A DNA stretch of 64,000 nt from NCBI RefSeq assembly GCF_017355405.1, contig NZ_CP061177.1, positions 124,001 through 188,000 of the forward strand, read 5' to 3'. Positions 34,080 through 53,165 of the stretch are shown here, piece by piece. The notes below the pieces were generated by a model. It saw nothing but the letters and a program-made list of their open reading frames with translations, searched no databases and was not told the DNA's origin. Each line of letters begins with the position of its first letter. Positions within the stretch are counted from its first letter, which is position 1. The position numbers were made by a program, and so were the translations under genes. The stretch comes from Roseomonas haemaphysalidis. Lineage in GTDB: Bacteria; Pseudomonadota; Alphaproteobacteria; Acetobacterales; Acetobacteraceae.

Positions 34080-34757
34080 ATGTCCGTCTTCCGCCGCCGC
34101 CGCGAAGAGCCCACCCCCGCCGCCGCTCCCGGCCTGCCCGAGGGCGACGTGCCGACCACCATGCCGGTGGCCCGCGACCCGGACCTCGCCGTTCCCCCCT
34201 TCCGCCCCGCGCCGAGCCCAGCGCTGGCCCCGCATTCCAAGGATGCCGACATGAACATGCCGCAGAAGCCCGGCCAGCCCGGCATGGGCGTGCCGCCCCG
34301 CCCGATGCCGATGGCCGGCACCGGCCCGCTGATCACGCCCGGCGGCGGCGCCCGCCCGGCCCCCGCGCCGGAGCGGCGCTCCATGGTCGTGGGCAAGGGC
34401 ATCAGCCTGCAGGGCACCGTGACGGACGCCGAGCGGCTGGTGGTCGAGGGCACGGTGGAAAGCCAGATGATGCACGCGGCCGAGCTGATGATCAGCCATT
34501 CCGGCGTGTTCAAGGGCGAGGTCGAGGTGGATGACGCCGAGGTCGCCGGCATCTTCGACGGCACGCTGACGGTGCGCGGCAACCTGATCATCCGCGCCAC
34601 GGGCAAGGTGATGGGCAACGCCCGCTGCCGCCGCCTGCAGGTGGAGGAAGGCGGCCAGGTGTCCGGCCGCATGGAGATGCTGGGCGACGCCGCCCCCGCT
34701 CCCGCGCCGCGCCCGGCCATGCCGGTCGGCTCGTCGGACGTCGAACCGCTGGAATGA
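34080..34757 (+). CDS. Bactofilin family cytoskeletal protein
   Basis: A 225-aa bactofilin. The beta-helical DUF583 core occupies about residues 100-205 (VVGKGISLQGTVTDAERLVV, EGTVESQMMHAAELMISHSG, GKVMGNARCRRLQVEEGGQV). It is flanked by a long Pro-rich N-terminal tail and a short C-terminal tail ending SDVEPLE. Bactofilins polymerise without nucleotide and localise wall enzymes or surface appendages. The N-terminal tail of about 95 residues is longer than in BacA. The ribosome-binding site AAAGGGGGAAACC is strong. A classic terminator follows at 34781. Confidence 0.9.
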   Translation: MSVFRRRREEPTPAAAPGLPEGDVPTTMPVARDPDLAVPPFRPAPSPALAPHSKDADMNMPQKPGQPGMGVPPRPMPMAGTGPLITPGGGARPAPAPERRSMVVGKGISLQGTVTDAERLVVEGTVESQMMHAAELMISHSGVFKGEVEVDDAEVAGIFDGTLTVRGNLIIRATGKVMGNARCRRLQVEEGGQVSGRMEMLGDAAPAPAPRPAMPVGSSDVEPLE

Positions 34758-36637: not shown

Positions 36638-38332
36638 ATGTTTGACGCGCTGCCCTCGCCCACCCGTGGCGCGCCCTGGCTGACCCGGCCGGTGGGCGCC
36701 ATGGCGCGGTGCTTCGGCTGGACGTTCCTGCCGCCGGTGCTGCTGGCGACGCTGCTGGTGACGCTGCTGGCGCTGGCCCTGCCCATCATGCTGCTGCAGA
36801 TCTACGACCGCGTGCTGCCCAATGCCGCCGGCGGCACGCTGCTGGTGCTGGCACTGGCCGTCGCCGGCGCCATTCTGGCGGAAGCGGCGCTGCGCCACGT
36901 GCGCGGCCGCATCCTGGCGCGCGTCGCCGCCACGTCCGAGGCGCAAACCCACCGCCAAGCCATGCAGCGGCTGCTGCAGGCGCCGCTGGCGGACCTGGAA
37001 GCCCACGGCAACGGTTACTACGCCGAGCGGCTGTCGGCGATCGGCACGCTGCGCGAGGCCTGGTCGGGCCCGGCGCTGCAGGCCATGCTCGATCTGCCTT
37101 TCGCGCTGCTTTACCTGCTGGGCATGTGGTTTCTGGCCGGCCCGCTGGTGCTGGTGCCGCTGGCGCTGCTGTGCGGCATCGCGCTGCTGGCGGTGCTGAC
37201 CGGGCGGCGGGTGCGGCGCGCCGCGCATGCCCTGGCGATGGCCGAGGAGCGCCGCTTCAACTTCCTGTTCGACACGCTGCACGGCATCAACGCCATGAAA
37301 ATCCTGGGCGCCGAGCCGCTGCTGGAACGGCGCTACGACCGGCTGCAAAGCGGCTCGGCCGAGCTGCGCCGGGCGCTGGGCCTGGCCACCGCCGCCGGGC
37401 AGGAAGGCGGGCTGCTGCTGGCGCAGCTGGCCACCGTGGGCGTTGCCAGCCTGGGCGCGATGATGGTGCTGGACGGGCAGCTCAGCGTCGGCGGGCTGGG
37501 CGCCTGCACCATGCTGGTGGGGCGCACCATGCAGCCGCTGCTGGGTGGCATCGCCTTGTGGTCCCGGCTGCAGTCGCTGGCCGAAAGCCGCCACCGCGTG
37601 GCCGAGATCGGCACCCTGCCGCAGGAGCGCCGGCCCGACCGCCCGCCGCTGCGGGTGGCCGAGGGGCGGCTGGCGCTGCGCGGCGTCGGCTTTCGCACGC
37701 CGGGGCACGACGTGCCGCTGCTGGACGGTGCCAGCCTGGACACGCGGCCGGGCGAGCTGGTGGGCATCACCGGCGCCAACGGCACCGGCCGCTCCACCCT
37801 GCTGCGGCTGATGGCCGGCGACCTGCAGCCCACCGCCGGGCAGGTCTGCATCGACGACCAGGACCTGGCGGCGGCGGACTTGGGCGAGGCGCGCCGCCGC
37901 GTGGCGCTGGTGCCGCCCGATGTCGCGCTGGTGCGCGGCACGCTGCTGCAGAACCTGACGCTGCACCAGCCGCGGATGGAGGCCGCCGCGCTGCGCCTGG
38001 CCACCGAGCTGGGGCTGGACCAGGTGGCCACCGGGCTGCCGGGCGGCTGGCACACACCGGTGGGCATCGCCGCCATGCCGCTGTCGCGCGGGGCGGTGCA
38101 GCGCATCGGCATCGTGCGCGCGCTGGTGGAAGCGCCGCGCATCCTGCTGCTGGATGACATCACCACGCAGATCGACGCGGATGGCGACCTGCGGCTGTCG
38201 CGGCTGCTGGCCGGGCTGCGCGGCCGGGTGACGGTGGTGATCGTGACGCACCGCCGTTCCATCCTGTCCGCCGCCGACCGCGTGCTGGAAATTCGCGCCG
38301 GCCTGCTGCGGCCGGCGGAGCCGCAGGCATGA
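36638..38332 (+). CDS. Type I secretion ABC half-transporter with degenerate ATPase
   Basis: A 564-aa membrane-plus-ATPase exporter half of the PrtD/HlyB type without a C39 domain. Five to six helices (for example FLPPVLLATLLVTLLALALP) precede the ATPase domain from about 350. The Walker A is GANGTGRST at 379-387, with the invariant Lys replaced by Arg385. The Q-loop Gln is Pro (VPPD). Walker B ends LLLDD, so the catalytic Glu is Asp507. The signature is LSRGAVQR at 482-489, nearly normal. It therefore looks unable to hydrolyse at its own Walker site but able to complete a site with its partner. ATG overlaps at the 3' end join it to the next gene. Confidence 0.92.
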   Translation: MFDALPSPTRGAPWLTRPVGAMARCFGWTFLPPVLLATLLVTLLALALPIMLLQIYDRVLPNAAGGTLLVLALAVAGAILAEAALRHVRGRILARVAATSEAQTHRQAMQRLLQAPLADLEAHGNGYYAERLSAIGTLREAWSGPALQAMLDLPFALLYLLGMWFLAGPLVLVPLALLCGIALLAVLTGRRVRRAAHALAMAEERRFNFLFDTLHGINAMKILGAEPLLERRYDRLQSGSAELRRALGLATAAGQEGGLLLAQLATVGVASLGAMMVLDGQLSVGGLGACTMLVGRTMQPLLGGIALWSRLQSLAESRHRVAEIGTLPQERRPDRPPLRVAEGRLALRGVGFRTPGHDVPLLDGASLDTRPGELVGITGANGTGRSTLLRLMAGDLQPTAGQVCIDDQDLAAADLGEARRRVALVPPDVALVRGTLLQNLTLHQPRMEAAALRLATELGLDQVATGLPGGWHTPVGIAAMPLSRGAVQRIGIVRALVEAPRILLLDDITTQIDADGDLRLSRLLAGLRGRVTVVIVTHRRSILSAADRVLEIRAGLLRPAEPQA

Positions 38333-40488
38333 GGCCCCCCGCCGCCCCCGGCCATGATGACGGCGAGGACGACCGCCGCCGCCTGGTGGCGTTGCCGGAC
38401 ACGCTGCTGGCGCCGTCCGACCTGGCGCGCTGCCTGCCCTTGCTGCTGTGGCTGCTCGATTGGCGCGGCGGCGAGGACGACCTGCTGGCGGCGCTGCCGC
38501 ATGCCAAGCCCGAAATCGACCTGACCGACCTGCGCAACAGCCTGGCGGTGCTGGGCTTTCCCACCCGGCTGCACCGGCTGCGGGGGGGCCGGGCACCGGC
38601 GGAGCTGCTGCCCGCCATGCTGCTGGCGCCCGGCCGCCCGGCGGCGGTGCTGTATGCCGACGAGCAGGGCCGGCTGCTGCGTGCCGAGCCGGGCGGCGGT
38701 GCCGCGCCCTGCCCGCCTTCCGCGCTGCGCGGCCTGCTGCTGTGCTGCGCCCCGCCCCTGGCGGCGCGGCCGCGCCAGGGCTGGTTCGCCGGCGTGGCGC
38801 GGCGCTTCCACGGCGACCTGCCGGCGCTGCTCGGCGTCAGCGGGCTGATGGCGGTGCTGGGGCTGGCGGTGCCGGCCTTCGCCATGGCGGTGTTCGACAC
38901 CATCATCGCCGGCCACAGCCCCGCCACGCTGCCCATGCTGGCGCTGGGCGTGACTGGCGCGGTGCTGGGCGAGGCCGCCTTTCGCAGCCTGCGCCAGCGC
39001 GCCCTGCTGCGCATCGGCGAGCGGCTGGACCGGCTGGTGTCGGGCGCCGTGTTCACGCAGCTGATGTCCTTGCCCACCGCTCTGGTGGAACGCGCCGGCA
39101 CCGCGTCCCAGGTGTCGCGGCTGCGCGACTTCGCGGCGATCCGCGAGTTCCTGACCGGCGCCTTCGCCGTGGCGGTGCTGGACCTGCCGTTCACGCTGGT
39201 GGTGCTGGCGCTGATGCTGGCGCTGGGCGGCTGGATCGCGCTGGTGCCGGTGGGCACGGTTTGCGCCTTCGGCCTGTTGTTTCTGCTGACCCGCGCGCCG
39301 CTGCGGCTGGCCATCGCGGATGCTGCCCGCGCCAGCCAGGCGCGCGAGGCGCTGGCGGTGGAGGCGCTGGAAGCCGCCCGCACCTTGAAGCTCGCCGGTG
39401 CCGAAGGGCGCTGGGTGGAACGCTACGCCGCCGCGGCCGCCGCGGCCGCCGTGGCCTCGGCCCATGCCGCCACGCTGTCGGGCGCGGTGCTGCTGGCGTC
39501 GCAGGCCATTGTCACGCTGTCCGGGCTGGCCGCCGTGGTCACCGGCGTCCTGGCGGTGTTCGGCGGGGCCATGACCGCGGGCGCGCTGATCGCCGGCATG
39601 ATGCTGATCTGGCGCGTGCTGGGGCCGCTGCAAACCGGCTTCACCATGCTGAGCCGCTGGGAGCAGACCCAGGCCTCCATCCGCCAGGTGGACCAGTTGA
39701 TGGCGCTGGAAAGCGAGCGGCCGGACCCGCTGGACGCGCGCATGGCGCCGCCCGAGCGGGGCGAGATCGTGTTCCATCGCGTCACTCTGCGCTACCTCGC
39801 GCAGGCCGAGCCGGTGCTGGCCGGCGCCAGCGTGTCCATCCGCCCGGGCGAGGTGGTGGCGGTGGTGGGTGGCGAGGGCGCGGGCAAGTCCAGCCTGCTG
39901 CTGCTGGTGGCCGGGCTGTACCGGCCGCAGGGCGGCGTGGTGCGGATCGACGGCCACGACGTGCGCGCCTTCGACCCGGCGGTGCTCCGGCGCAACATCG
40001 GCTGGGTGCCGCAAAAGCCCGAGCTGCTGTACGGCACCGTGGCACAGAACCTGCGGCTGGCGCATCCCACCGCGTCCGACAGCGTGCTGCGGCGCGCCGC
40101 CGCGGAAGCCGGCGTGCTGGCGGCGATCGAGGCCCTGCCGCAGGGCTTCGACACCCGCGTGGGCGACAATCGCAGCGGCAGCCTGCCGCGTTCCATCCTT
40201 TTGCGGATCGCCCTGGCGGCCGCGCTGCTGCGCGACGCGCCCATCCTGCTGCTGGATGAGCCGGTGGCCGGGCTGGACGATGCCTGCGCGCAGGCCTTCA
40301 CCGACGTGATCGCCAGCCGGCGCGGCCGCTGCACCATCCTGATGGCCACCCACCGCCCCAGCCACGTGAAGCTGGCCGACCGCGTGCTGCGCGTGCGCGA
40401 CGGCCAGCTGGAGGAGCTGGCGCGCCCCGCCGCCGGCGCCGCCCCGCAGCGCACCCCCGTATTCAGCCCTTCTGGAGCCGGCCGATGA
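38329..40488 (+). CDS. Type I secretion ABC half-transporter with C39-like N-terminus
   Basis: A 719-aa exporter half. Residues 1-150 resemble the inactive C39-peptidase-like domain of LapB/HlyB transporters (PHAKPEIDLTDLRNSLAVLG; no catalytic Cys recognised). Six helices follow. The ATPase has a canonical Walker A GGEGAGKSS (Lys520), Q-loop WVPQKPELLYG, Walker B LLLDEP (Glu644) and switch His in ATHRP. Its signature is degraded to SGSLPRS at 616-622 where LSGGQ is expected. It is thus the mirror image of the upstream half: good Walker motifs, poor signature. It overlaps both neighbours by ATGA. Confidence 0.93.
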   Translation: MRPPAAPGHDDGEDDRRRLVALPDTLLAPSDLARCLPLLLWLLDWRGGEDDLLAALPHAKPEIDLTDLRNSLAVLGFPTRLHRLRGGRAPAELLPAMLLAPGRPAAVLYADEQGRLLRAEPGGGAAPCPPSALRGLLLCCAPPLAARPRQGWFAGVARRFHGDLPALLGVSGLMAVLGLAVPAFAMAVFDTIIAGHSPATLPMLALGVTGAVLGEAAFRSLRQRALLRIGERLDRLVSGAVFTQLMSLPTALVERAGTASQVSRLRDFAAIREFLTGAFAVAVLDLPFTLVVLALMLALGGWIALVPVGTVCAFGLLFLLTRAPLRLAIADAARASQAREALAVEALEAARTLKLAGAEGRWVERYAAAAAAAAVASAHAATLSGAVLLASQAIVTLSGLAAVVTGVLAVFGGAMTAGALIAGMMLIWRVLGPLQTGFTMLSRWEQTQASIRQVDQLMALESERPDPLDARMAPPERGEIVFHRVTLRYLAQAEPVLAGASVSIRPGEVVAVVGGEGAGKSSLLLLVAGLYRPQGGVVRIDGHDVRAFDPAVLRRNIGWVPQKPELLYGTVAQNLRLAHPTASDSVLRRAAAEAGVLAAIEALPQGFDTRVGDNRSGSLPRSILLRIALAAALLRDAPILLLDEPVAGLDDACAQAFTDVIASRRGRCTILMATHRPSHVKLADRVLRVRDGQLEELARPAAGAAPQRTPVFSPSGAGR

Positions 40489-41855
40489 ACATGTCCGTGC
40501 CGCCCGGGGCGCTGCGGCCCGAGCCGCCGCCGCCCCTGCCCGAGCTGCCGCGCGCCAGCCGCCTGCAGCGCCCCGACAGCCACGTGCTGGCGCTGGAGGA
40601 GGTGCGGGTGCAGGGGCTGGAGCGCGCGGTCGTGGTGGGCGCCGCGGTGCTGGTGGCGCTGGCCATCGGCTGGGCCACCGTGACGCGCGTGCCGGAAGTG
40701 GCGGTGGGGCTGGGTGACATCGCCCCCGCCGCCGCGCCCGCGCCGGTGCAGCACCTGGAAGGCGGCATCGTCGCCGCCGTGCTGGTGGAGGAGGGCGAGG
40801 GCGTGGACGCCGGGCAGCCGCTGGTGCGGCTGAACGACGTGGCGGTGCTGGCCGAGCTGTCGCAGGCCCGCACCCGCCTGGAGTCGCAGCTGTTGCAGGC
40901 CCAGCGCCTGGCCGCCGCCGCCGAGGGCGATGCCCGTGGCATGCCGCGCCTGCCCGCCGGCACGCAGCAGGCGCCGCAGCGCGCCGCGCTGGAAGCCAAG
41001 CTGCGCGCCCTGGCCGACCGGCGCGGCGTTCTGCGCGAGCAGGTGGCGCAGCGGCGGGCGGAGCTGGCGACGCTGGCGGCCTCGGCCGCCGCCGTGGCGG
41101 CGCAGGTGGCGCTGCACCAGCGCGAGCTGGCGGTGCGCGAAGGGCTGGCGCGCGACGGGCTGACCACCCGGCTGGCGGTGCTGGAAGCCCGGCGCCTGCT
41201 GATGGGCGCGCAGGCCGAGCGCGACCGCCTGGTGGGCCAGGGCGATGCCGCCCGCCGGGCCCTGGCGGAAGCCGAGGCACGCGTCACGGAGCTGCAATCC
41301 GCCGCCGCCGACGAGGCGCGCGGTGAAGCCGCCCGGGTGGCGCTGGAGATCGCCGAAAGCACCGAGGTGGTGGCCCGGCTGGACGAGCGGGCGGCCCGCG
41401 CCGTGCTGCGCGCGCCGATCGGCGGCGTGGTGCGTGGCCTGGCGGTGCACCGTCCCGGCGCCGTGCTGCAGCCCGGCGCGCTGGTGGCCGAGATCATGCC
41501 GCTTGACGCTTCCCTGGTGGCCGACGTGCGGCTGGCGCCGCGCGACATCGGCTTTATCGCGCCCGGGCAGGAGGTGCACGTCAAGGTGCAGGCCTTCGAC
41601 TACGCCCGCTTTGGCGCGGTGGCCGGGCGGGTGGAGCGGATCTCCGCCGGCACTTTCTTCGACGAGCAGCGGCAGCCGCATTACCGCGCGCGCATCGCGC
41701 TGGACCAGCAGCATGTCGGCCACGACCCGCGCCACGCGCGGCTGGCCGCCGGCATGACCGTCCAGGCGGACATCACCACAGGTACCAAGACGGTGCTGCA
41801 GTACCTGCTGAAGCCGATCTATTCGGCGGTGGCAGCCTCCTTCCACGAGCGCTGA
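40485..41855 (+). CDS. HlyD family periplasmic adaptor of type I secretion
   Basis: A 456-aa membrane fusion protein. A cytosolic Pro-rich tail (1-45) precedes one transmembrane helix (48-66, VVVGAAVLVALAIGWATV). Next come the lipoyl half-motif PVQHLEGGIVAAVLVEEGEG, long coiled-coil helices (about 115-290), and the second lipoyl half VLRAPIGGVVRGLAVHRPGA. The beta-barrel region ending FHER is typical of PrtE/LapC-type adaptors. It links the inner-membrane ABC pair to a TolC-like outer-membrane channel, which is not encoded in the window. It starts inside the stop of the second ABC gene, and the giant passenger follows 11 bp later. Confidence 0.95.
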   Translation: MNMSVPPGALRPEPPPPLPELPRASRLQRPDSHVLALEEVRVQGLERAVVVGAAVLVALAIGWATVTRVPEVAVGLGDIAPAAAPAPVQHLEGGIVAAVLVEEGEGVDAGQPLVRLNDVAVLAELSQARTRLESQLLQAQRLAAAAEGDARGMPRLPAGTQQAPQRAALEAKLRALADRRGVLREQVAQRRAELATLAASAAAVAAQVALHQRELAVREGLARDGLTTRLAVLEARRLLMGAQAERDRLVGQGDAARRALAEAEARVTELQSAAADEARGEAARVALEIAESTEVVARLDERAARAVLRAPIGGVVRGLAVHRPGAVLQPGALVAEIMPLDASLVADVRLAPRDIGFIAPGQEVHVKVQAFDYARFGAVAGRVERISAGTFFDEQRQPHYRARIALDQQHVGHDPRHARLAAGMTVQADITTGTKTVLQYLLKPIYSAVAASFHER

Positions 41856-41866
41856 AAGCACGCCCC

Positions 41867-44800
41867 ATGGCCGACCCCAAGCCCGCGACAGCCCAGGAAA
41901 CCAGCGTCGTCGACGCCGAGGCATTGCGCCTGCTGCGCGCCGTGCAGCGCATGACCCCGCAGGGCGGCGATGTCGGCCACGCGCTGGTGGGCGGCACCAT
42001 CGCCGCCGGTGGCATCGCGGCGGTGCAGGCCGCCCCCGCCAGCGGCACCCGGACGACTGAAGCGGACGCGGCGCCCCTGCGGCGGCCCGACGCGGCGGCC
42101 CCGGCCACAGTGGCGGCGCTGGAGCAGCATCCGGTGGCCGACCATGCCACGGTGGCGGACACCGTGCTGCCAGTGGCGGCCCCGGCGGGGCTGGCGCGGC
42201 CGGCCGCAGCCGCCATCCCGGCCGGCCTGGCGCGGCTGGCGGTGGCGCCCCCCCTGGACGAGGCGGTGCCGGAACGGGCACCGCCGGTTGCGAGCGTGGT
42301 ACCCACGCCCGCCGCCACGGTGCCGGACGCGAGCGCCACGCCGCGCCGCGCCACCGGCTCCCCGGCGGCCTTGACCCCCCCGCCACCCGCCGCGGAGGCC
42401 GAGACCGCCGCCGCGTCACCGGCCGCCCCGGCTGCACCCGCGATGCCGGACGGGCTCGCGCCGGTCGCCACCCCGCGGCCAGTGCCTGCCGATGCGTTGC
42501 CGGCCGATGCCTCGCCACCTCTGCAACACGCCCCCGCTCCGGTCAGCCCGCCCCCGCCAGCCGTCGATCCGGTGCCCCCTGCCGAACCCGGGCCTGCACC
42601 TTCAGGTCCGACCCCACCGGTTGAGCCCGGTCCTACACCGGTTGATCCAACCCCGCCGGTCGAGCCTGCCCCTACGCCGCTCAATCCGACTCCGCCGGTT
42701 GAGTCCGATCCCACACCGGTTGATCCGACCCCGCCGGTCGAGCCTGAGCCCACGCCGGTCGATCCGACCCCACCGGCTGAGCCCGAGCCCACGCCGGTCG
42801 ATCCGACCCCACCGGCTGAGCCCGAGCCCACGCCGGTCGATCCAACCCCGCCGGTCGAGCCTGAGCCCACACCGGTTGATCCGATCCCGCCGGTTGAGCC
42901 CGAGCCCACGCCGGTCGATCCGACCCCACCGGCTGAGCCCGAGCCCACGCCGGTCGATCCGATCCCGCCGGTCGAGCCTGAGCCCACACCGGTTGATCCG
43001 ATCCCGCCGGTCGAGCCTGAGCCCACACCGGTTGATCCGATCCCGCCGGTTGAGCCCGAGCCCACACCAGTCGAGCCGCCCCCACCGGCTGGGCCCGAGC
43101 CCACGCCGGTCGATCCAACCCCGCCGGTCGAACCCGACCCCACACCGGTTGATCCGACCCCGCCGGTCGAGCCTGAGCCCACACCGGTTGATCCGATCCC
43201 GCCGGTTGAGCCCGAGCCCACGCCGGTCGATCCGACCCCACCGGCTGAGCCCGAGCCCACGCCAGTCGAGCCGCCCCCACCGGCTGGGCCCGAGCCCACG
43301 CCGGTCGATCCAACCCCGCCGGTCGAACCCGACCCCACGCCGGTCGATCCGATCCCGCCGGTCGAGCCCGAGCCCGAGCCCACACCGGTTGATCCGATCC
43401 CACCGGTCAAGCCTGAGCCCACGCCGATCGATCCAACCCCGCCGATTGAGCCCGAGCCCACGCCAGTCGATCCGACCCCGCCGGTTGAGCCGGAGCCCAC
43501 GCCAGTCGATCCGACCCCGCCGGTCGAACCCGACCCCACGACAGTCGATCCGACCCCGCCGGTTGAGCCCGAGCCCACGCCGGTCGATCCAACCCCGCCA
43601 GTTGAGCCCGAGCCCACGCCGGTCGATCCAGCTCCACCGGTCGAGCCCGAACCGCCACCCGCCGTTCCGGCACCGGTCGCGCAGATACCGCTCGTTGCCG
43701 CCGATTCAGCGCAAGGGTTCGAAGATGCCGCCATCGCCCTGCATCTTTCCGCTTCGGTGGCGGATACCGACGGTGCGGAAACCCTGGTGCTCAACCTGTT
43801 CGGGGTGCCGGACGGTGCCAGCTTGTCGGCGGGTGCGCGGCAGGCGGACGGCTCCTGGCTGCTGGCCGCCGGAGACCTGCCCGGCCTGACGCTGACGCCG
43901 CCGGCGGACTTCGCCGGCAACATCGAGCTGACGCTGCGCGCCACCGCCCGCGAAGCGAACGGCGATGCCGCGAGCAGCGAGGTGCCCTTCGTGGTCAAGG
44001 TAGCGCCGGTGGTCGACGGCGCCGTGCTGGCCGGCATGGCCGCCGGCAGCGAAGACCAGTGGATCGCGCTGGACGTGCAGTTCGGCCAGTCCAGCGACGC
44101 CTCGGAATCCTGGGACGCGACGGTGCTGGTGCAGGGCGTGCCGCCCGGCGCCGCGCTGAACCAGGGCGAGGCGCTGGGCGATGGCCGCTGGGTGGTGAGC
44201 CAGGCGGCGCTGGCCGCCGGCCTCGTGGCCATCCGCCCGCCGGCGGATGCCAGCGGCTCCATCGCGCTGCGGCTGGAAGCGGTGCTGCGCGATGCCGATG
44301 GCGAGGGCGCCAGCCAGCCCGTGTCGCTGGCGCTGGAGGTGCAGGTGGCCGCCGTCGCCGACGCGCCGCTTGTGCGGGCGGCCGATGCGGCGGGTCTGGA
44401 AGACGGCAGCGTGGCGCTGGATCTTTCAGCGGCGCTGGCGGATACGGACGGGTCGGAAAGCCTGTCCGTGGCGTTGCTCGGCCTGCCGGAGGAAGCCCGG
44501 CTGTCGGCCGGCACGCGCCAGGCGGATGGCAGCTGGAGCCTGCTGGCCACCGAGCTGGACGGGCTGCGCCTGTGGCTGCCGGCGGACCAGAGCGGCACGC
44601 TGGCGCTGACCCTGCGCGCCACCGCGCACGAAGCCGATGGCGACGCCGCGACCAGCGAGGCCGCCTTCACCGTGCGCATCGCCGCCGTGTCCGACGGCGC
44701 GGTGCTGCAGGCCGGCGGCGAGGGCGACGAGGACAGCTGGATCCCGCTGCGCGGCACGCTCGCCTTGCGCGACACCGATGGGTCCGAGCGCTTCGGCGAG

Positions 44801-50917: not shown

Positions 50918-51087
50918 AAAGGGTTCGGGCAGCAATGCCCGGACGTTCCTTCCGGCCCGTTTTCCGGAAGCCGCAGGGTGAACAGAGAAAGGCGACTGCC
51001 AAAGCAGTCGCCTTTTCCGAACCGTGGTCGTGCGTCCCCGGCACGCGGGAACAGGCGCGGGCCGGGGAGTTTCCTCCCCCCGACCCT
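50918..51087. repeat. Possible decayed composite repeat flanking a terminator
   Basis: GGGTTCGGGCAGCAATGCCC near 50919-50938 resembles the right arm of copy G. GCCGGGGAGTTTCCTCCCCC near 51061-51080, followed by CGACC, resembles one palindromic unit. They flank the strong stem at 50989-51014. The similarity is loose, and this is the weakest member of the family. Confidence 0.35.
50989..51016. terminator. Bidirectional terminator between adhesin and chemoreceptor genes
   Basis: A perfect 11-bp stem, AAGGCGACTGC (50989-50999) with GCAGTCGCCTT (51004-51014), has a 4-base loop. A-rich flanking on one side and T-rich on the other allow it to act in both directions. It sits between convergent genes. 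Confidence 0.85.
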
Positions 51088-51101
51088 GCGCCCGGCCGGC
51101 G

Positions 51102-53165
51102 TCATGCCACCCGCAGCGCGCCCAGGAAGTCGTCCATCCGCCCGCGCAGGCCTTCCGCGCGCTGCGCCAGCTCGCCGGCGGCGCCGCGCACCTCGGCGGC
51201 GGCGCGGCCGGTGCGCTCCGCATCCTCGCTGACGCCGGCGGCATGGCGGGATGCTTCCTCCGTGCCGGCGGCAGCCTGCGCCACGGCGTGGCCGATCTCA
51301 CGCGTCGCCTCGGCCTGCTGGCCGGCGGCCTCGGCCACCAGGCCGGTCGCCTCGTTCAGCTCGCGGATCATGCGGGCGATGTCGCCAATCGCCTGCACGG
51401 TGCGGGCGGTTTCGGCCTGCATGCCGGCGATCTGCTGGCCGATCTCCTCCGTCGCCTTGGCGGTCTGGCTGGCCAGGTTCTTGACCTCGCCCGCCACCAC
51501 GGCGAAGCCCTTGCCGCTTTCGCCGGCGCGCGCCGCTTCGATGGTGGCGTTCAGCGCCAGCAGATTGGTTTGGCTGGCGATGCCGGTGATCAACTGCACC
51601 ACGTCGCCGATGCGCCCGGCGGCCTCGGACAGCCCGCGCACCGTGCGGTCGGTGTGCTCGGCCGCCTGGGAGGCCTGCTGGGCGCGGGCCGCGCCGTCGC
51701 GCACCTGGCGCGCCACCTCGGCGATGGAGGCCGACAGCTCTTCCGCCGCGGCGGCCACCGTCTGCACATTGCCGCTGGCCTGCTGCGACGCGCCCGCCAC
51801 CGCCGCCGCGCGGTTGTTGCCGCTGGCCGCGATGTCGACCATGCCGGCCGCCGTGGCGTCCATCTCCGTGGCGGCGGAAGCGACGGCGCGCAGCACGCCG
51901 GCGGTTTCCTCCTCGAAGTCGCGCAGCAGGCCGTCCACCCGCGCGGCGCGGGCGATCTGCTGGCGCTGGCCTTCCTGCTGCTCCGCCACCATCCGCTGCC
52001 GCTCGGCCGAGCCGGCGCGCAGCGTCTCGACCGCCGCGGCCATCTCGCCCAGCTCGTCGGCGCGCTCGCGCCCGGGCACCACGATGCTCAGCTCGCCCTG
52101 CGCGATGCGCGTGACGCTGCCGGTCAGCGCCTGCAGCGGCAGCACCACGCGGCGCAGCAACAGCACGATGGCCGCCGCGGCGATGCCGCACACCGCCACC
52201 GCCAGCAGGCCGGCCAGCAGGAACGTCAGCCGCGCCCGGCTGGACAGGGTGTTGGTTTGCGTGATCGCCTCATCCAGCGCCACGTCGCGCAGCGCCAGGA
52301 TGTCGGCCTGCGAGCGCAGCGACCAGGGGCGGAACTCGGGCACCGTGGTGTTCCAGTTCGCCGCCCCGCCCGCCAGCACGTCGCGCGCCACTTCCACCAT
52401 CTGGCGCCAGCGCGGCTCGGACTGCGCCTGGATCGCCTTTTGCGCGGCCACCGCGGTTTGCAGCGGCGCGTTGCCGGGCAGCGCCGCGATCAGGCGCTGC
52501 ATGCCGGCCCAGGACTGCTCCATCCGCCCGGTGAGCTGGTGCATCTCCGCATAGGTCTGCGGCTGCACGGGCAGGCCGCCGATCCAGGCCGTCACGGGCA
52601 CGCTGCGGCGGCCGATCATGTCGCGGAAGTCCATGGCGCCGCTGGCGATCTCGACCAGCAGGGCGGCGGTGGGCGAGGTTTCGAACACCCGCTCGGCCGC
52701 CTCGGCGCCCAGGCGGCGCATCGCGTCGACGGACTGGTTGCGCACCTCCTGCGTCTGGTTCGGCATGCTGGCGTCACGCGCCGCCAGCGGCTTGGCCATC
52801 TCGGCCATCGCCCGCTCGCGGATGGCGAGCACGCGCTGCTGCACGATGCGCGCGGCCTCGACCTGGAAGCCGCCCTCGGTGGCGCTGCTGATGGCGTCCT
52901 GCAGCGCCTGGTCGGTGCGCGGCGCGGACAGGCGGCTGGTTTCGATGTCCGGCGTGGCGGAGCGCAGCTGGGACGCGAAGCCCCCCACCTCGACCGCCAC
53001 GGCGGTTTGCGCGCGCTGCGCCGTGCTGACGGCGCGGGTGGCGGCCTGTGCCTGCTCCGCCCGCTGCCAGCCGGACCAGGAGGAAGCGGACAGCCAGATC
53101 GAGGCTGCCGCCCCCGGCACGGCCACCGCGCAGAAGCAGGCCAGGAAGACGGTACGGATACGCAT
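51102..53165 (-). CDS. Methyl-accepting chemotaxis protein
   Basis: A 687-aa transmembrane chemoreceptor. TM1 is at about 5-25, a helical periplasmic ligand domain of nearly 290 residues follows, and TM2 is at 312-338 ([20 protein letters not shown]). HAMP comes next (about 338-390), then a long signalling coiled coil with the hairpin tip [20 protein letters not shown] and [20 protein letters not shown]. The periplasmic domain has no recognisable PAS/Cache core and looks like a helical bundle of the nitrate/4HB type. No CheB/CheR-binding pentapeptide is obvious at the C-terminus (GALRVA). It is monocistronic, between the adhesin and gamma-glutamyltransferase genes. Confidence 0.94.

Follow-up and report, generated by a model that had tools for sequence, protein, structure and literature searches.

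Complementary site defects in a tandem ABC pair of Roseomonas haemaphysalidis point to an asymmetric exporter for type I secretion

In the standard account, type I secretion is driven by symmetric homodimers of an ATP-binding cassette (ABC) protein. Does this picture fit a locus of Roseomonas haemaphysalidis in which two tandem genes for ABC half-exporters, half 1 and half 2, show different defects in their nucleotide-binding motifs and are followed by genes for an HlyD-type adaptor and a giant cadherin-like protein? The DNA in question, hereafter the window, is a stretch of 64,000 nucleotides (NZ_CP061177.1, positions 124,001 to 188,000), and coordinates given without a contig label are positions in it. 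A sequence-only reading of this DNA had predicted a heterodimer of unequal sites, one near consensus and the other dead, a prediction that is supported here by the relatives of the pair and by natural fusions. We consider it likely that half 1 and half 2 form one asymmetric ABC exporter for type I secretion of the operon's cadherin-like protein, with one site working and the other dead or nearly so. We draw on sequences, gene order, the directional conservation of the defects, fusions and the fold of one fusion, from which we infer that the window's own proteins heterodimerise, at which site ATP is hydrolysed, and what the cargo is.

Complementary defects in a pair that stays together

Motif positions in both halves were set by alignment with relatives (Table 1), which confirmed every residue singled out earlier, that is, in half 1 Arg385 for the Walker A Lys, Pro in the Q-loop, Asp507 for the Walker B Glu and the signature LSRG, and in half 2 the canonical Walker A (Lys520), Q-loop and Walker B (Glu644) and the degraded signature, of which the reported 'SGSLPRS' covers the first four letters of LPRSI. 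The tandem, overlapping arrangement was confirmed too (ATGA at 38329-38332). Two composite sites can be defined for such a pair: site A, with the Walker A Lys, Q-loop Gln, Walker B Glu and H-loop His of half 2 and the fourth-position Gly of the half 1 signature, and site B, with the same four residues of half 1 and the signature Gly of half 2.

The idea that half 1 is a rare gene (found in three of 150 genomes of the family at E<=1e-70, its own included) was rejected, since wider scans showed a wide family. In a large protein set, 111 proteins matched half 1 and 121, of which 120 were listed, matched half 2 at E<=1e-60 (window included in both; the list tails are other ABC proteins). A search of the class matched 161 of 387 genomes at E<=1e-80, lone proteins counted too, and 42 of 387 above 403 bits, just over lone protein L084 (402.5 bits), in a count of list entries unchecked individually. 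Our locus set comprises the best 80 of 143 half 1 relatives from a scan in which each species was represented by one genome. Most of the 80 are from Alphaproteobacteria (Microvirga, Pseudoroseomonas, Belnapia, Paramagnetospirillum, Azospirillum, Elioraea and others); two records, L039 and L068, are gammaproteobacterial, and two others bear the titles Micavibrio and Stygiobacter. The latter (L060, Stygiobacter sp., metagenome-assembled) has pair motifs identical to those of Magnetospirillum-type pairs and is perhaps a mis-binned contig. Residues were counted in 73 pairs, the window included, in which both nucleotide-binding domains are complete; they were taken from 84 loci after leaving out L001-L003 (short pieces), L026, L037, L050, L051, L066 and L075 (cut off by the contig end), L049 (half 2 interrupted by N) and L033 (half 2 divided between two frames).

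Of these pairs, 65 have an intact site A and two an intact site B. Half 2 has Lys in 72, Gln in 67, Glu in 72, His in 71 and the signature Gly in 10, and half 1 has Lys in 41, Gln in 32, Glu in 35, His in 44 and the signature Gly in 71. In the clade of the window (30 pairs, window included) the division is complete: Lys, Gln and Glu are found in no half 1 protein (Asp replaces Glu in all 30), which all have His and Gly, and each half 2 has Lys, Gln, Glu and His and none the signature Gly. Orthologues therefore do not retain all motifs in both halves, 30 of the 30 clade pairs being defective. For the 43 pairs outside the clade, half 1 counts are Lys 41, Gln 32, Glu 35, His 14 and Gly 41, with site A intact in 35 and site B in two, and the difference from the clade counts means that the same site has been spoiled through different losses. 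The expected conservation of the defects across orthologous operons thus holds within the window clade; other clades lose different residues. Arg in the half 1 Walker A occurs in 32 pairs, namely the 30 clade members and two more, L040 and L070, that branch elsewhere in the tree. At signature position 2, half 1 has Ser in four pairs and Pro in 67, and half 2 has Pro in 56. Since Ser is so scarce, the LSRG of the window, rightly described as nearly intact, is a minority state (most relatives have LPRG) and the better site is non-canonical in most members.

Parsimony on a tree of 45 pairs requires in half 1 nine changes of His, five of Glu, five of Gln, three of Lys and two of Gly, and in half 2 four of the signature Gly, one of Lys, one of Glu and two of His; the half 2 Gln, which needs four, falls outside the contrast between the sites. 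As a control, 23 of 24 lone ABC proteins of the type I secretion type retain all five of their own residues, lone status being judged inside loci of a few kilobases only; these come from 30 loci found in a search of 58 related genomes; six of the loci hold pairs and were not counted as lone. The exception, L113 (G171), is apparently lone, has a C39 peptidase match and is altered in Q-loop, signature, Walker B Glu and H-loop; it is possibly half of another asymmetric pair. By these sequence counts, the complementary defects of the two halves exceed chance.

The two genes also keep company. Among 81 loci (the 80 and the window), five end before half 2, and in all 76 others half 2 follows as the next ABC gene of the same strand, as a separate frame in 71, fused to half 1 in four, and in L049 interrupted by a break of 442 N and found by tblastn. 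Among the 71, half 2 of L033 is split over two frames and the matched frame of L056 begins 890 bases after half 1. An hlyD gene follows half 2 in 73 of 75 loci (L049 excluded), the other two contigs ending there, and 60 of 70 unfused pairs, the window's among them, overlap in an in-frame ATGA or GTGA. Because loci were found through half 1, any half 2 that has no half 1 beside it would have escaped the search. Median ratios of non-synonymous to synonymous substitution (dN/dS) are 0.116 for half 1 and 0.105 for half 2 (168 pairs each), a similar purifying selection that marks half 1 as not a decaying gene. In a tree made by a quick method (45, 45 and 15 rows), half 1, half 2 and lone proteins occupy three sides with supports of 100, 100 and 94, and within-half distances of the two halves correlate (r 0.96, 990 pairs). 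Both halves place Microvirga, a member of another order, within the acetobacteral clade and leave Belnapia and Roseomonas outside; this shared placement suggests that half 1 and half 2 were transferred together as one unit.

A direct argument for a heterodimer comes from natural fusions of half 1 and half 2, an example being a protein of Magnetospirillum moscoviense. We listed 120 two-in-one type I secretion ABC proteins (P0233-P0352), 117 of them 1254-1524 residues long, which run half 1 first and have their halves joined by linkers. Sites were counted in 111, leaving out P0284 and P0319 (truncated) and seven rows (P0342-P0344, P0347 and P0349-P0351) in which the alignment shows a gap where the half 2 signature begins; the Arg, the Asp and the LPSS or LPST of these seven favour an asymmetric exporter. 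Structure prediction for one fusion, P0244, gave a full-transporter fold.

Proposed mechanism and its alternatives

In our proposal, half 1 and half 2 together with the adjoining HlyD and a TolC-type channel encoded elsewhere would constitute a type I secretion system. ATP would be hydrolysed mainly at site A, and site B would be hydrolytically dead or nearly so, probably holding ATP or acting as a hinge; by analogy with TAP, TM287/288, CFTR and ABCG5/G8, ATP may stay bound at the degenerate site while the other turns over (PMC7756269). Half 2 matches the LssB model (TIGR03375) from model position 3, whereas the match of half 1 begins only at position 150. Half 1 therefore has no C39-like N-terminal domain, and each ABC dimer would contain one such domain, not two. 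Three heterodimers on HlyD would contribute a total of three C39-like domains and as many active sites.

We lean, with reservations, towards a broader statement, namely that the pair represents a widespread unnamed class of obligate asymmetric type I secretion engines, made of two coupled half-genes or one fusion and mostly with Pro for Ser in the signature, in which the site of half 1 Walker motifs and half 2 signature (nucleotide-binding site 1, or NBS1, in the fusions) has been deprived of its catalytic residues repeatedly and in different ways. If this is true, the family records a stepwise change from a near-symmetric protein exporter to a one-site engine of the CFTR/TAP kind. The family seems to be one of protein exporters, many of which would have a single working ATP site per dimer, and since near-symmetric and fully one-sided members stand in one family, the role and recurrent evolution of a degenerate ATP site are testable there.

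Several observations weigh against this picture, or limit it: (i) 64 of the 111 fusions keep site B too by the five-residue count, so asymmetry is not required for the family to work; (ii) some loss at site A is seen in eight of 73 pairs, with L056 worse at A than at B, and the half 2 Gln is absent in six; (iii) Pro for the signature Ser in 67 half 1 proteins leaves the activity of the better site not assured; (iv) the control loci were the best matches to the LssB model, and the control is therefore biased to intact proteins; and (v) the modelled P0244 is not the window's pair but a relative with a cut N-terminus, whose half 1 keeps Lys, Gln and Glu.

Point (iii) leads to an alternative in which the heterodimer forms but both sites are impaired, so that the cycle is governed by ATP binding or turnover is slow at both. 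Pro for Ser in both halves of most pairs speaks for it, but the near-total conservation of Lys, Glu and His in half 2 and Ser483 in half 1 of the window speak against it, and we regard it as unlikely. An equally improbable arrangement would have half 2 as a homodimeric engine and half 1 as a separate, inert homodimer that occupies places in an export complex of several dimers. The assembly of HlyB and HlyD, with its three HlyB dimers on six HlyD, makes mixed complexes with idle dimers conceivable (PMC11026475), and half 1 of the window clade, devoid of Lys, Gln and Glu, would suit the idle role; yet a half 2 homodimer would carry two LPRS signatures, half 1 would have kept a signature Gly not needed there, and the linker-joined fusions, one with the fold of a full transporter, argue against it as well. 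That half 1 is a functionless, decaying duplicate beside a half 2 that works alone is very improbable indeed, for despite the three catalytic residues gone in the window clade, its dN/dS is like that of half 2, its signature Gly is retained almost throughout, and it adjoins half 2 in every usable locus, even if the loci were found by half 1. The asymmetric exporter thus remains the reading that we prefer.

The locus and its presumed cargo

Table 1. Features of the operon, with positions in the window
Feature	Coordinates	Strand	Basis
Half 1: ABC half-exporter without N-terminal C39-like domain, 564 residues	36638..38332	+	ORF; ABC_membrane + ABC_tran
Half 1 Walker A GANGTGRST 379-387, Lys replaced by Arg385	37790..37792 (Arg385)	+	Alignment with relatives
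Half 1 Q-loop VPPDV, Gln replaced by Pro427	37916..37918	+	Alignment; Gln in 0/30 of window clade
Half 1 signature LSRGA 482-486, fourth-position Gly (Gly485) kept	38081..38095	+	Alignment; Gly in 71/73
Half 1 Walker B LLLDD, Glu replaced by Asp507	38156..38158	+	Alignment; Asp in 30/30 of window clade
Half 1 H-loop VTHR, His538 kept	38249..38251	+	Alignment with relatives
ATGA stop/start overlap, half 1 / half 2	38329..38332	+	ORF coordinates
Half 2: ABC half-exporter with N-terminal C39-like domain, 719 residues	38329..40488	+	ORF; ABC_membrane + ABC_tran
Half 2 Walker A GGEGAGKSS 514-522, Lys520	39886..39888 (Lys520)	+	Alignment; Lys in 72/73
Half 2 Q-loop VPQKP, Gln562	40012..40014	+	Alignment; Gln in 67/73
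Half 2 degenerate signature LPRSI 619-623	40183..40197	+	Alignment; fourth Gly in 10/73
Half 2 Walker B LLLDE, catalytic Glu644	40258..40260	+	Alignment; Glu in 72/73
Half 2 H-loop ATHR, His675	40351..40353	+	Alignment; His in 71/73
HlyD-type periplasmic adaptor, 456 residues, 4-base overlap with half 2	40485..41855	+	TIGR01843
Presumed cargo: cadherin-like/tandem-95 surface protein, 3012 residues	41867..50905	+	Cadherin_4, Big_9, Cadherin_5; NF012211

The adaptor scores 321.8 bits against a TIGR01843 cut-off of 208.65, so that the operon holds the HlyD-family protein by which a type I secretion system is recognised. A TolC-type gene lies elsewhere in the genome, outside the window (TIGR01844, G000:C1:2323019-2324230, 336 bits against a cut-off of 225.15); a second one, at G000:C1:2612498-2613710, consists of two overlapping open frames (269 and 308 residues) and is perhaps frameshifted. 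The same genome has two other ABC frames of the type I secretion type, which match TIGR03375 below its cut-off and have LSGGQ and the Walker B Glu; one of them (G000:C4:86318-87742) is only 512 residues long and perhaps truncated. Upstream of the operon is a bactofilin gene (34080-34757).

The exporter had been described as dedicated to a giant adhesin, which fits part of the family. In the window clade, 24 loci (window and L033 included) extend at least 2.5 kb past hlyD, and 23 of them have a stop-free frame of at least 885 codons, counting frames that start within 1.5 kb of the hlyD end, many of which run off the locus; L025 has no such frame within that distance. Nine long frames after hlyD were scanned across the whole family and five have cadherin-like domains, those of L005, L013, L018 and L032 in the window clade and of L055 (Elioraea). 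The frame of L063 encodes an SMC-type protein, and scans of those of L061, L073 and L080 returned no convincing family. A giant cadherin-like cargo therefore suits the window clade and Elioraea, not every member. Where the cargo is this long, it bears on the number of ATPs and engines that such a pump needs.

Near its N-terminus, the giant protein has a proline-rich unit of 13 residues, encoded by a 39-base tandem repeat (42607-43650, 26.6 copies, 84% match). Convergent with its gene is one for a methyl-accepting chemotaxis-type protein with HAMP and MCPsignal domains (51102-53165, minus strand). A plus-strand frame of 539 residues (50935-52554) was considered as an operon member and rejected, since it has no family and lies largely opposite the chemotaxis-type gene; it is probably spurious.

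Comparison with known systems

By sequence, the nearest named families are the HlyB/LapB/LssB-type exporters, which also have hlyD adjacent and share the C39-like part of half 2. The best solved relative of half 1 is HlyB (7SGR, E 1.1e-63). Neither half reaches the cut-off of a named family: half 1 and half 2 score 373.5 and 434.7 bits for TIGR03375 (LssB/LapB; cut-off 693.1), 271.2 and 304.8 for TIGR01846 (HlyB; 725.55), and 253.9 and 287.3 for TIGR01842 (PrtD; 510.15). These exporters differ from the pair in being single-gene proteins with LSGGQ-type signatures and, in the lone relatives of our control, nearly always intact sites.

Two ABC proteins serving one giant cargo are known from the four-component type I system for the Vibrio MARTX toxin, in which RtxB and RtxE are both needed (PMC3034196) and for which a heterodimer was suggested by Boardman and Satchell in 2004, as told in PMC4316617. 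Compared by gene order, the two systems differ: the Vibrio ABC genes flank the adaptor gene (PMC4316617), whereas the window and its relatives have half 1, half 2 and hlyD in succession. NHLP bacteriocin loci likewise have two ABC genes, one of them with an N-terminal C39 peptidase motif (PMC6959600), but half 1 and half 2 score 206.6-227.1 bits with the NHLP models TIGR03796 and TIGR03797, at most 227.1 against a cut-off of 853.3 for ABC1 and at most 216.2 against 709.4 for ABC2. At the BapP locus of Pseudoalteromonas tunicata, the products of tandem ABC genes next to an adhesin were modelled as a heterodimer, and a LolD-like ATPase is present there as a subunit of its own (PMC12153261), so that ATPase and permease are presumably on different proteins.

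An asymmetric exporter of this kind had been thought undescribed, which has to be qualified, since the heterodimer idea itself is already published for RtxB/RtxE, and a review calls a system based on TmrAB of Thermus, in which the TmrB site is degenerate, a type I secretion system (PMC8277102). Beyond that naming, a literature search with most subscription papers outside its reach met no type I secretion ABC pair or fusion recognised as having a conserved degenerate site.

A further parallel is with TAP, TM287/288, TmrAB, CFTR, MRP1 and ABCG5/G8, which also combine altered Walker residues and an altered signature in one composite site. They have other substrates and are not known to have an HlyD-type operon. 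The pair agrees with these heterodimeric degenerate-site exporters in that one half has lost catalytic residues and the other its signature. The individual changes also have counterparts, for in human degenerate sites Glu to Asp is the second commonest change, and Walker A Lys to Arg occurs in ABCG5/G8 (PMC7756269). Finally, the degenerate site is NBS1 in full-length human proteins (PMC7756269), as it would be in the fusions, which begin with half 1.

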